NCBI GenBank assembly: GCA_003132145.1
Contig: PKWU01000037.1
Coordinates: 30,325 to 94,324, forward strand
Direction of reading: 5' to 3'
DNA length: 64,000 nt
DNA from: Granulicella sp.
Lineage (GTDB): Bacteria > Acidobacteriota > Terriglobia > Terriglobales > Acidobacteriaceae
Below, in pieces: positions 18,550 through 64,000 of this stretch. A program made the translations under genes and the position numbers. Position 1 is the first letter of the stretch. Every line of letters begins with the position of its first letter. Below the pieces are notes generated by a model. That model saw only the letters and a program-made list of their open reading frames with translations. It did not search any database and was not told the DNA's origin.

Positions 18550-18560
18550 CAACACAATCG

Positions 18561-18649
18561 CTAGTATCCTGAGTCATTGATTCGCCGCTCAAAACCAAGG
18601 GCCAAAGGCCCGATCTATTTTTTAGCAAACTTCTGACTCAGGACACTTG
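18561..18649. terminator. Inverted repeat with nested terminator-like hairpin after the VWA operon
   Basis: Outer arms ctagtatcctgagtca (18561-18576) and tgactcaggacacttg (18634-18649) are complementary at 14 of 16 positions. Between them a gggcc-aaa-ggccc hairpin (18599-18611) is followed by six Ts at 18618-18623. The inner part looks like an intrinsic terminator for the plus-strand VWA genes; the outer arms would enclose it. Confidence 0.55.
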
Positions 18650-18671: not shown

Positions 18672-18788
18672 TAGAGCGGAACCAGAGTAACAGTGCCCAA
18701 GCGAAGAGCATCGAAGGTAGCTTTTTCTTGAGGAAAAAGCCACTCGGAGGGATTGCCCCCGGGGTATACCTACTCTGGTTCCGCTCTA
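18672..18788 (-). repeat. Stop-codon-anchored nested inverted-repeat element, copy 1
   Basis: 117 bp. Terminal arms tagagcggaaccagagta (18672-18689) and its perfect reverse complement (18771-18788). In the middle a second palindrome, gctttttc-ttgag-gaaaaagc (~18719-18739). On the minus strand the element begins exactly at the TAG stop codon of the EamA gene. A second copy lies at 63093-63207 with the same layout, the same eight terminal bases and the same central core, while most other arm bases differ but still pair. Confidence 0.85.
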
Positions 18789-19205
18789 GCCCATCACAAT
18801 CACGATGGCTCCAGCCGTGATGAGTAGTCCGCCGATCAGCGAGGAAGGGGTAAGCTTTTCGCCCAGTAGCAGCCATGCAAAGACCATGACCAGCGGCACG
18901 CTGAGTTTGTCCAGCGGAGCCACGCGTGAGGCCGGTCCCAACTGCAGAGCGCGAAAGTAGCACAGCCACGACAGTCCTGTGGCCAGTCCCGAGAGGGTGA
19001 GAAAGAGCAGCGTGCGCCGGTCAATGGAACGAATCTCGCCGTGTTTGCCCAAGGCCAGCGCAATGCTCCATGCAAAGATCAGCACCACAGTGGTGCGCAG
19101 CGCCATGGCCAGATTCGAGTCCACATGCTCCACGCCCACCTTGGCCAGCAAGGCAGTGGCGGCAGCAAAGGCCGCAGACAGCAGTGCCCATCCAATCCAG
19201 CTCAT
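18786..19205 (-). CDS. EamA-domain (DMT superfamily) half-size membrane protein
   Basis: 139 residues with five predicted membrane helices, equal to one EamA repeat (ends PLDKLSVPLVMVFAWLLLGEKLTPSSLIGGLLITAGAIVIV, the DMT signature). Most EamA transporters carry two repeats in ~290 residues, so this one must dimerise, as in SMR-like or ancestral DMT proteins. Substrate unknown. Its TAG stop lies inside the inverted-repeat element. Confidence 0.86.
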   Translation of the reverse strand: MSWIGWALLSAAFAAATALLAKVGVEHVDSNLAMALRTTVVLIFAWSIALALGKHGEIRSIDRRTLLFLTLSGLATGLSWLCYFRALQLGPASRVAPLDKLSVPLVMVFAWLLLGEKLTPSSLIGGLLITAGAIVIVMG

Positions 19206-52140: not shown

Positions 52141-52215
52141 TGGTGTCCCCAACGGGACTCGAACCCGTGTTACCGCCGTGAAAGGGCGGTGTCCTAACCA
52201 CTGAACGATGGGGAC
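52141..52215 (-). tRNA. tRNA-Glu (anticodon TTC), CCA encoded
   Basis: Minus strand. Acceptor 5' gtcccca pairs with tggggac, then discriminator a and encoded cca. The anticodon arm is ccgcc-ctTTCac-ggcgg and the T arm carries ggttcgagtcc. Closely similar to E. coli tRNA-Glu. The only RNA gene I can support in the window. Confidence 0.95.
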
Positions 52216-63092: not shown

Positions 63093-63207
63093 TAGAGCGG
63101 TTTCACCGCAACTGTTATCGCGCGAGAATTATTAAAGTGGTTTTTCTTGAGGAAAAACCACGCAAACGTTCTTCGCTCCTGTAAAGACCTGCGGTGGAAC
63201 CGCTCTA
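63093..63207 (-). repeat. Stop-codon-anchored nested inverted-repeat element, copy 2
   Basis: 115 bp. Arms tagagcggtttcaccgca (63093-63110) and tgcggtggaaccgctcta (63190-63207), 17 of 18 paired. Central hairpin gtggtttttc-ttgag-gaaaaaccac at ~63130-63154. On the minus strand it starts at the TAG stop codon of lepB. Same plan as 18672-18788. Confidence 0.85.
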
Positions 63208-64000
63208 GCGGACGATGTGGAAGGTGCGGCCCCAGCGGGTCTCGGAGAAGAAGTGGATGAGGATGTGGCCCATGAAACTTATGCGGTCGGCGAGCGCGGT
63301 CTTGTCGATCTGGTCGGCGGGGGTGAGGAAGGACCAGTAGACGAACAAGGGGCGACCGACGATGTTCTGGCGCGGGACGAAGCCCCAGAAGCGTCCGTCG
63401 AGGGACCGGGTACGGTTGTCGCCCATGGCGAAGACGGTGCCGGGCGGGACGACCAGGTCGCCATCGACGACGTGGTTGGGCAAGTCGATGGCCCACAGCG
63501 AGGCGTTGTTCTGGCTGGCCGCCTGCTCGATGCCGTCCAGGTCCGCGGGGAAGTCGTCGCGATAGGGGGTGTAGGCGTCCTCGGAGTCGCCATCGTCGCG
63601 GGGCATCTGGGCGTAAGGCTCATTCTGGGCCACGCCATTGAGGTATACGATGCCGTCGCGCAGATGGATGCGGTCGCCGGGGAGGCCGATGCAGCGCTTG
63701 ACCAGATAGAGGTCGGGGGTCTCGGGGTGGGGCTTGAGGAAGACGATGATGTCGCCGCGGCGGACGTCGCGGTAGTGGACGAAGGGTGCCCAATGCGATG
63801 GAGGCGCGAGCGAGATGCGGTCGACCAGGACGTGGTCTCCGATGAGCAGCGTCTTCTCCATGGAGGCGGAGGGGATCTCGAAGTTCTGGAAGACGAAGGT
63901 CATGACGAAGAGGCCGAGGGCGAGGACGAAACAGATGGAGGCGAGCGACTCGAGTGCGGTCTCGCGGTCCTCCTGCTCGGGCTGTTCGGGGGTGGTTGCG
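63205..64000 (-). CDS. lepB: Signal peptidase I (LepB), 5' end outside window
   Basis: At least 264 residues; the gene runs off the right edge, since the frame stays open with a membrane helix (LASICFVLALGLFVMTFVFQ) before the first internal ATG at 63903. Catalytic Ser in EIPSASMEKTL, catalytic Lys in YLVKRCIGLPGDRI, and the box GDNRTRSLDGRFWGFV. Cleaves signal peptides of exported proteins at the outer face of the membrane. Two extra segments (QASQNNASLWAIDLPN...) enlarge the domain. Its stop codon is the first triplet of the inverted-repeat element. Confidence 0.93.
   Translation of the reverse strand, partial: ATTPEQPEQEDRETALESLASICFVLALGLFVMTFVFQNFEIPSASMEKTLLIGDHVLVDRISLAPPSHWAPFVHYRDVRRGDIIVFLKPHPETPDLYLVKRCIGLPGDRIHLRDGIVYLNGVAQNEPYAQMPRDDGDSEDAYTPYRDDFPADLDGIEQAASQNNASLWAIDLPNHVVDGDLVVPPGTVFAMGDNRTRSLDGRFWGFVPRQNIVGRPLFVYWSFLTPADQIDKTALADRISFMGHILIHFFSETRWGRTFHIVR

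Follow-up and report, generated by a model that had tools for sequence, protein, structure and literature searches.

A dispersed, TA-flanked palindromic element of Acidobacteriaceae with a strong association with stop codons

The window analyzed here, a stretch of 64,000 nt of Granulicella DNA, contains two short palindromes of common layout, in which a single pair of terminal arms surrounds a single central hairpin, and each of them meets the end of a gene on the minus strand (Table 1). The Pfam EamA domain match ends at residue 137 of the 139-aa product of the first gene, and at lepB a longer open frame reaches 63999. An earlier sequence-only reading had the coordinates, the nested palindrome plan, the 18-bp arms and the length of ~116 bp right for both copies. 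It had also correctly recognized a minus-strand TAG stop as the first triplet of each, and had seen that both copies agree in their outer eight bases and in the core while much of the remaining arms differs on both sides. Its further suggestion, that the central stem swaps a C:G for a G:C pair, depends on the alignment chosen. The central stem-loop of both copies is TTTTTC-TTGAG-GAAAAA, and because the full stem measures 11 bp in type A (GTGGC-TTTTTC/GAAAAA-GCCAC; L002, L003, L004) and 10 bp in type B (GTGG-TTTTTC/GAAAAA-CCAC), a single additional pair in type A is the simpler reading.

Table 1. The two palindromes, their parts and the genes ending on them, in window positions.
Feature	Position	Strand	Description
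Copy 1 (type A subfamily)	18672..18788	no strand	117 bp, both ends TA
Left terminal arm of copy 1	18672..18689		TAGAGCGGAACCAGAGTA, 18 bp; paired in RNA folds
Right terminal arm of copy 1	18771..18788		final CTA is the TAG stop of the EamA gene (minus strand)
Central hairpin of copy 1	18717..18743		11 positions per side, one A.C mismatch; loop TTGAG 18728-18732
EamA-family gene	18786..19205	-	139 aa; Pfam EamA PF00892; stop is the first triplet of copy 1
Copy 2 (type B subfamily)	63093..63207	no strand	115 bp, both ends TA
Left terminal arm of copy 2	63093..63110		TAGAGCGGTTTCACCGCA, 18 bp; paired in RNA folds
Right terminal arm of copy 2	63190..63207		final CTA is the lepB TAG stop (minus strand)
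Central hairpin of copy 2	63137..63161		10 bp; loop TTGAG 63147-63151
lepB (signal peptidase I)	63205..63903	-	Pfam Peptidase_S26 PF10502; stop on copy 2

RNA folds of the two strands reached -60.9 and -62.8 kcal/mol for copy 1 and -49.2 and -55.8 kcal/mol for copy 2, energies that were matched by 0 of 200 shuffles on any of the four strands (z -6.35 to -9.40). A comparison of the window with 4,227 Rfam covariance models at gathering thresholds gave no match on the element, and the five sub-threshold matches (E up to 10) fell in five loci, all off the element. At the gathering thresholds, the window as a whole has a single Rfam match, a tRNA at 52144-52215 on the minus strand. We also observed a second palindromic repeat, TCCTGAGTCA..TGACTCAGGA, at 18559-18648, just upstream of copy 1, which has many partial matches in genomes G000, G305, G323 and G312.

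Both palindromes recur in the genome that carries them. Copy 2 has 26 distinct matching places there, some of them partial, and copy 1 has 7, one of them partial; plasmids searched with copy 2 gave no match. The exact end of the element is TAGAGCGGTT, and the exact-end pattern TAGAGCGG-N70-100-CCGCTCTA occurs at 11 places in this genome, compared with 0 for the same pattern read backward as a control, so the resemblance of copies 1 and 2 is not due to chance. Within the family Acidobacteriaceae the pattern was present in 13 of 300 genomes (11 of 79 genera), a count that is weak evidence on its own because the backward control yields one or two matches per genome in more than 13 of the 300. Five genomes (G000, G046, G058, G137 and G201) hold 3 to 11 true exact-end matches each, against a control maximum of 2, while the single matches at L035 and L042 are unlike the element in appearance.

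A covariance model, R1, was built from 11 diverse copies (alignment A3) and had matches in 14 of 297 genomes sampled across the phylum, all 14 within the same family; at most 12 candidates were scored per genome and stricter filters lose weak matches, so that the number of copies in each genome is a minimum. From 100 loci, the best 150 of 205 strand matches yielded 97 distinct elements, with seven weaker elements outside this collection. The length is 113-118 bp in 94 of the 97 collected elements (best 150 of 205 matches), and ~116 bp is too short for a transposase gene of its own. A looser end pattern found at least 117 stretches in named genomes, in Terriglobus, Granulicella and other Acidobacteria and also, among the matches listed, in Bradyrhizobium, Methylobacterium, Sphingomonas, Caulobacter, Planctomycetota and Opitutaceae. 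The first 80 and the other 37 of these stretches were analyzed separately, leaving out 7 and 3 loci, respectively, from other or unclear groups; the named acidobacterial loci overlap the 97 (e.g., G148, G116) and are not independent of them. Assembly gaps (NN) lie inside the element at L022, L023, L025, L026 and L027 (G000) and at L378, suggesting that the hairpins probably break assemblies and that copy numbers in drafts are too low. Elements also lie 7 to 14 nt before an mraY-like gene in three genomes (L006 in G000, L114 in G148, L118 in G128), through either an old shared insertion or repeated insertions.

Comparison of filled and empty sites documents movement. At the locus of a CYTH-domain gene the element is present in five genomes (G150, G221, G209, G257, G278), and the site is empty and reads CTAAAG in nine (G284, G331, G300, G337, G338, G317, G168, G332, G250), with four further aligned genomes (G130, G196, G316, G328) too diverged for reading. 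The filled site reads CTA-element-TAAAG, that is, a TA duplication inside a pre-existing TAA stop. The lepB site of copy 2 is filled in G340 (L095) and empty in G323 (L096), where the TAG stop is present; the empty site has one C more than the filled flank, and the duplication here is not base-perfect. The flanks of the empty site are 90% identical and those of the filled one 85%, and a closer relative that is empty together with a farther one that is filled requires that the element was lost, was replaced or entered this stop more than once. At the copy 1 locus, G323 (L434) reads CAACACAATCTAGCCCATC, with the stop present and the element absent; it also lacks ~110 bp beyond the element, and the neighboring repeat at 18559-18648 is absent as well. 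Sites free of the element are thus known from three loci, the two in the window and that of the CYTH gene. Of the 97 collected elements (best 150 of 205 matches), 70 have TA at both ends with complete flanks, and among these the left outer neighbor is Y in 65 and the right outer neighbor is R in 54. The target is thus YTAR with the TA duplicated, the duplication being seen at one locus with nine empty sites. By its structure, its copy number and its TA duplication, the element constitutes a dispersed MITE-like family.

The position of the two window copies at gene ends is shared by many of the collected elements. With genes called by our own codon model rather than a standard gene finder, a gene end falls exactly on the first triplet of 43 of the 97 collected elements, at 44 gene ends, and the other 54 elements lie away from stops (best 150 of 205 matches). 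After merging of shared loci from the same best 150 matches, 39 of 91 are stop linked, as are three of the seven weaker elements outside the 97 and 5 of 15 young type B copies. Other gene-end distances are scattered, with only two frames ending inside the element (+6 and +24) versus 44 at base 1. For a null expectation, 38 of 481 noncoding YTAR sites lie on stops (7.9%); when the comparison is limited to YTAR sites that follow a stop by 1-60 nt, the enrichment is smaller (odds ratio, 3.2; p 0.001). We rejected a longer target motif as the cause of the excess, as a flank weight matrix from non-stop copies predicts just 7.7% on stops (96 of the 97 elements with full flanks, 43 stop linked and 53 not, with the TA centered also for decayed ends). 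The original codon, read from the far flank, was TAA at 24 and TAG at 20 of the 44 gene ends and another codon at none, which indicates that stops stood there before insertion; gene disruption as a source of stop-linked ends was rejected on this basis and on that of the frame positions.

The same association extends to other sets of loci. Named acidobacterial loci, partly from the same genomes as the 97, are on stops in 9 of 20 cases versus a null of 18% and in 4 of 10 versus 7% (among the matches listed). Among the matches listed, alphaproteobacterial elements with the same ends are on stops in 26 of 55 cases versus a null of 11%, and the far codon in the first alphaproteobacterial set was TAA in 8, TAG in 21 and TAC in 1. 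The second alphaproteobacterial set gave 16 of 24 versus 9%, with far codons TAG in 15 and TAA in 3 (among the matches listed). A check for shared flanks covered the first 55 alphaproteobacterial elements and found none.

Full-length IS427-type elements behave differently, with 3 of 41 on stops once loci of short or duplicate flanks are dropped. With the same exclusion and equal 550-bp flanks, 2 of 33 IS427-type elements versus 38 of 92 of our elements are on stops (p 1.4e-4), a contrast explained in part by proximity to any gene end (9 of 33 versus 62 of 92). Because full-length IS427-type elements lack the enrichment, the stop excess is not a plain property of the YTAR target. The sequence-only reading had offered, as one possibility, a small mobile element with stop codons as its target, and this came close to what we find in a TA-flanked dispersed palindrome with empty sites and 43 of 97 copies on stops; stop codons are nonetheless not its sole target, since 54 of the 97 lie elsewhere. 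The many matches with covarying arms at gene ends that the same reading had named as support were found. Our literature search for stop-codon targeting with YTAR, or for elements overlapping stops, found no paper. The stop-codon habit of the element is unusually strong and measurable.

We regard it as highly probable that both palindromes are copies of a nonautonomous MITE-like element that inserts at YTAR, is mobilized by the IS427 group and is retained at stops. The outer 18-bp inverted repeats would serve as the transposon ends, on which an IS5 family/IS427 group transposase would act in trans, and insertion at YTAR would duplicate the TA, as seen at the CYTH locus. Of the 194 element ends in the collection (97 elements, best 150 of 205 matches), 137 begin with TAG and 15 with TAA. 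Because the target supplies TA and the third base of most element ends (152/194) is G or A, a TAA or TAG stop hit by an insertion would usually be restored at once and in either orientation, as it is observed to be, with TAG as the new stop or TAA where the end begins TAA; this leaves the protein unchanged, and copies could therefore accumulate at stop codons. A stop that follows a pyrimidine is a YTAR site and would be among the few at which an inserted element damages no protein and no promoter. We hypothesize that survival of such harmless insertions is the main cause of the stop excess. The threefold excess that remains over neighboring 3' sites, together with the contrast to full-length IS elements, possibly reflects how old the copies are, a target complex of another kind or an advantage that the hairpin confers. 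The central hairpin, whose sequence differs between subfamilies while its pairing is kept, probably stays perfect because propagation requires it or because sequence is copied from one side of the palindrome to the other, and not for the sake of the host gene.

With these results, a family of palindromic elements that duplicate TA, backed by empty sites, is described for the Acidobacteriaceae. They also sharpen the view that MITEs are intergenic: in each of two phyla, over 40% of copies lie exactly on stops, which the inserted element itself restores. As full-length IS427-type elements do not show this habit, whether it stems from retention, from target choice or from a benefit to the host can be tested directly.

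The paired changes noted between copies 1 and 2 bear on what maintains the palindrome. Among the 11 diverse copies, two-sided changes occur at 14 of 28 pairs, in 33 cells versus 10.6 in shuffles, and paired changes between subfamilies are real. In the 97 collected elements (best 150 of 205 matches), the central pairs comprise 882 Watson-Crick, 21 G.U and 21 mismatched cells, and the 1,729 scored arm cells comprise 1,524 Watson-Crick, 39 G.U and 166 mismatched, of which the innermost arm pair accounts for 59, leaving 107 without it. The youngest subfamily, type B (13 copies, with L024 and L095 excluded from the mutation counts), has 19 changed arm pairs, of which 17 are broken, 2 are G.U and none is compensated; 5 of the 17 broken pairs represent one state common to five copies. 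Its central 25 bases, by contrast, are unchanged, with 0 mutations in 325 site-copies versus 39 in 1,170 elsewhere (Fisher p 1e-4), and the central hairpin is identical in all 15 type B copies with a readable center, one more having an assembly gap there. Type B rows were first picked by an intact center, and a repeat pick by the arms alone gave the same center.

Since the arm breaks in type B are uncompensated, pairing is restored between element lineages and not at each locus. The breaks in young copies favor selection on, or copying within, a mobile palindrome over a host RNA function, and a host RNA role accounts for the data no better than selection for mobility or within-palindrome copying does. 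The selection for structure that had been proposed from the letters alone thus survives as paired changes between subfamilies, but not as selection on RNA at host loci, given the uncompensated changes in young arms and the lack of a G.U bias.

The paired changes might also have arisen with no selective cause, if, by template switching in an imperfect palindrome, one arm served as the template for the other. Template switching in palindromes makes two-sided changes in one step, and we consider this account unlikely, yet the most credible of the alternatives. Pair 17/99 of the arms, which is found as T:A, C.A and C:G among related copies, counts in its favor, as does the scarcity of G.U cells (39 and 21) relative to the 1,524 arm and 882 central Watson-Crick cells. 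The uncompensated breaks in young arms, however, imply that such copying is not fast, and the mismatch rate is lower in the center (21/924) than in the arms (107/1,632 without the innermost pair), where plain copying predicts otherwise.

A host-selected RNA element in 3' UTRs, retained because its hairpin, once transcribed, shields or processes the message of the gene ending on it, seems to us improbable. It would accommodate the over-representation at stops in two phyla (43/97, 26/55 and 16/24) that full-length IS elements do not share (3/41; 2/33 versus 38/92), the absence of mutations from the type B central hairpin, and one hairpin pair at the CYTH locus that reads T:A, C.A and C:G in three lineages. 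It does not sit well with the type B arms, in which 17 of 19 changed pairs are broken (5 of the 17 as one shared state), 2 are G.U and none is compensated, or with the 54 of 97 copies that are off stops (best 150 of 205 matches). We also judged selection at the RNA level from the sense strand of stop-linked copies and rejected it on this measure, as G.U is not significantly preferred over A.C either in the arms (18 versus 16, p 0.86) or in the center (13 versus 6, p 0.17).

The identity of the mobilizing transposase was approached through the ends of candidate elements. DUF4096 (IS427-type) loci from the same bacterial family have TA-bounded inverted repeats at 46 of 132, a number that includes weak and duplicate cases, and the elements are ~800-930 bp in most cases. 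Among the 46, 8 have ends that start with TAGAGC and 13 with TAGGGC; the TAGAGC-type end TAGAGCGTGTTTCA is found at L079, L239 and L142, and the end nearest to that of our element is TAGAGCTGGTTTCA at L244, one base longer. Two of the IS427-type elements with TA-bounded repeats (L142 and L145) are located in the relative G323, which is empty at both window loci. An autonomous IS with ends identical to those of the element was absent among the 46 TA-bounded elements of the 132 DUF4096 loci, and a DUF4096 match was absent in 7 of 14 genomes checked, including the element-rich G128 and G148; for these reasons we infer the mobilizer from shared features. The TA boundary, the YTAR target and the similar TAGAGC ends point to an IS427 group transposase of the IS5 family, to which IS711 also belongs, as the likely mobilizer in trans. 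IS427-group elements are tabulated with 2-bp direct repeats in all but one row (PMC3281130), and IS711 of Brucella is described as using a YTAR target with a preference for Bru-RS palindromes (PMC2266754).

Mobilization by an IS630/Tc1-mariner transposase instead of the IS427 group is a somewhat more doubtful prospect than a host RNA role. DDE_3 transposase matches occur in 7 of 11 element-bearing genomes. IS630 elements use and duplicate TA, as our element does. RUP, moreover, has been linked to IS630-Spn1 (PMC2229807). However, DDE_3 (IS630-type) loci have TA-bounded inverted repeats at 6 of 20, starting with TAGTAC, TAGTGG, TATAGA and TACACG, and the ends of IS427-type elements are much closer to those of our element. 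No TAGAGC ends were found at the 20 DDE_3 loci in the 11 genomes searched, and IS630 was rejected as the parent.

We give still less credence to the idea that the stop-linked copies are domesticated 3' elements whose hairpin couples translation termination to mRNA fate. With the stop in the outer stem, a terminating ribosome would hold the arms open, and its release would let the hairpin close. If this were true, selection for domestication would explain why short hairpins lie on stops in two phyla, unlike full-length IS elements with the same target.

An intrinsic transcription terminator that has spread to gene ends, another proposal of the sequence-only reading, is very improbable, even though strong hairpins are located at gene ends, two weak terminator-like matches in the sense of the EamA gene touch copy 1 (18761-18745 inside it and 18677-18660 over its downstream end) and the 901-bp region around copy 1 has 5 terminator-like sites versus 0.8 in shuffles. 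The region of copy 2 has no terminator-like match, the T-run of the internal match in copy 1 belongs to the central stem, and, reading along the gene, 0 of 44 stop-linked gene ends have 5 or more T among the 8 nt that immediately follow the element. Copies also lie inside co-directional gene strings, as in G128 and G148, where a Mur ligase gene (probably murF, with Pfam support for G128) is followed by the element and, after 7 nt, by mraY. In G128 (L118) a second element lies on the mraY stop. Beyond the element, a co-directional start follows within 250 nt at 15 of 44 stop-linked gene ends, and a convergent gene at 15 of 44. A strong terminator is accordingly unlikely.

Returning to the preferred reading of a mobile element retained at stops, several known systems provide points of comparison. 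The end sequences of Correia/NEMIS elements differ from those of the acidobacterial element. The company of short bacterial MITEs includes Correia/NEMIS, ERIC, RUP and CIR/Bru-RS as described (PMC2229807, PMC10969869, PMC2649163). Correia/NEMIS of Neisseria is presented as a short, palindromic, multicopy MITE with TA ends, as here, and, once transcribed, it can fold and become a substrate of RNase III (PMC2649163, PMC2229807); most CREE are given as 154-156 or 105-107 bp, unlike the acidobacterial element, and the term "stop codon" is absent from the main text of the Correia paper (PMC2649163). ERIC/IRU and RUP are described with a target duplication and TA termini, and it is by this description that we liken them to our element, although the linkage of RUP to IS630-Spn1 sets it apart from an element whose nearest ends are of the IS427 type (PMC2229807). 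QMITE2 of Coxiella burnetii is reported to occupy chiefly 3' UTRs and in some cases to touch the 3' end of a gene, but it differs in its length of 150-190 bp, its 7-11 nt direct repeats of varied sequence and the REP inside it (PMC5896051).

The alphaproteobacterial elements start with TAGAGC by virtue of the search pattern and have TA termini and a YTAR context, as in the acidobacterial element; they are mostly 103-106 bp (47/55, among the matches listed), whereas the acidobacterial ones are mostly 113-118 bp. GANTC is in excess in the former (45/55 versus 17.8 shuffled, among the matches listed) and not in the latter (25/97 versus 33.8 shuffled, best 150 of 205 matches). CIR is described as having TA termini, two long inverted repeats and a length of ~110 bp (PMC2229807), and Bru-RS as being 103-105 bp long (PMC2267715). 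From length, TA ends and GANTC, rather than from sequence comparison, the alphaproteobacterial elements are likely CIR/Bru-RS of Caulobacter, Brucella and relatives. CIR is characterized as strictly intergenic (PMC10969869), yet alphaproteobacterial TAGAGC palindromes (L316-L432) lie on stops. In layout, CIR/Bru-RS have two inverted repeats, and the acidobacterial element has 18-bp ends around one central hairpin. The IS427 group itself shares with the element a 2-bp duplication, the YTAR target and TA-bounded ends such as TAGAGCGTGTTTCA, and differs in being mostly ~800-930 bp long, in carrying its own transposase and in lying only rarely on stops (3/41).
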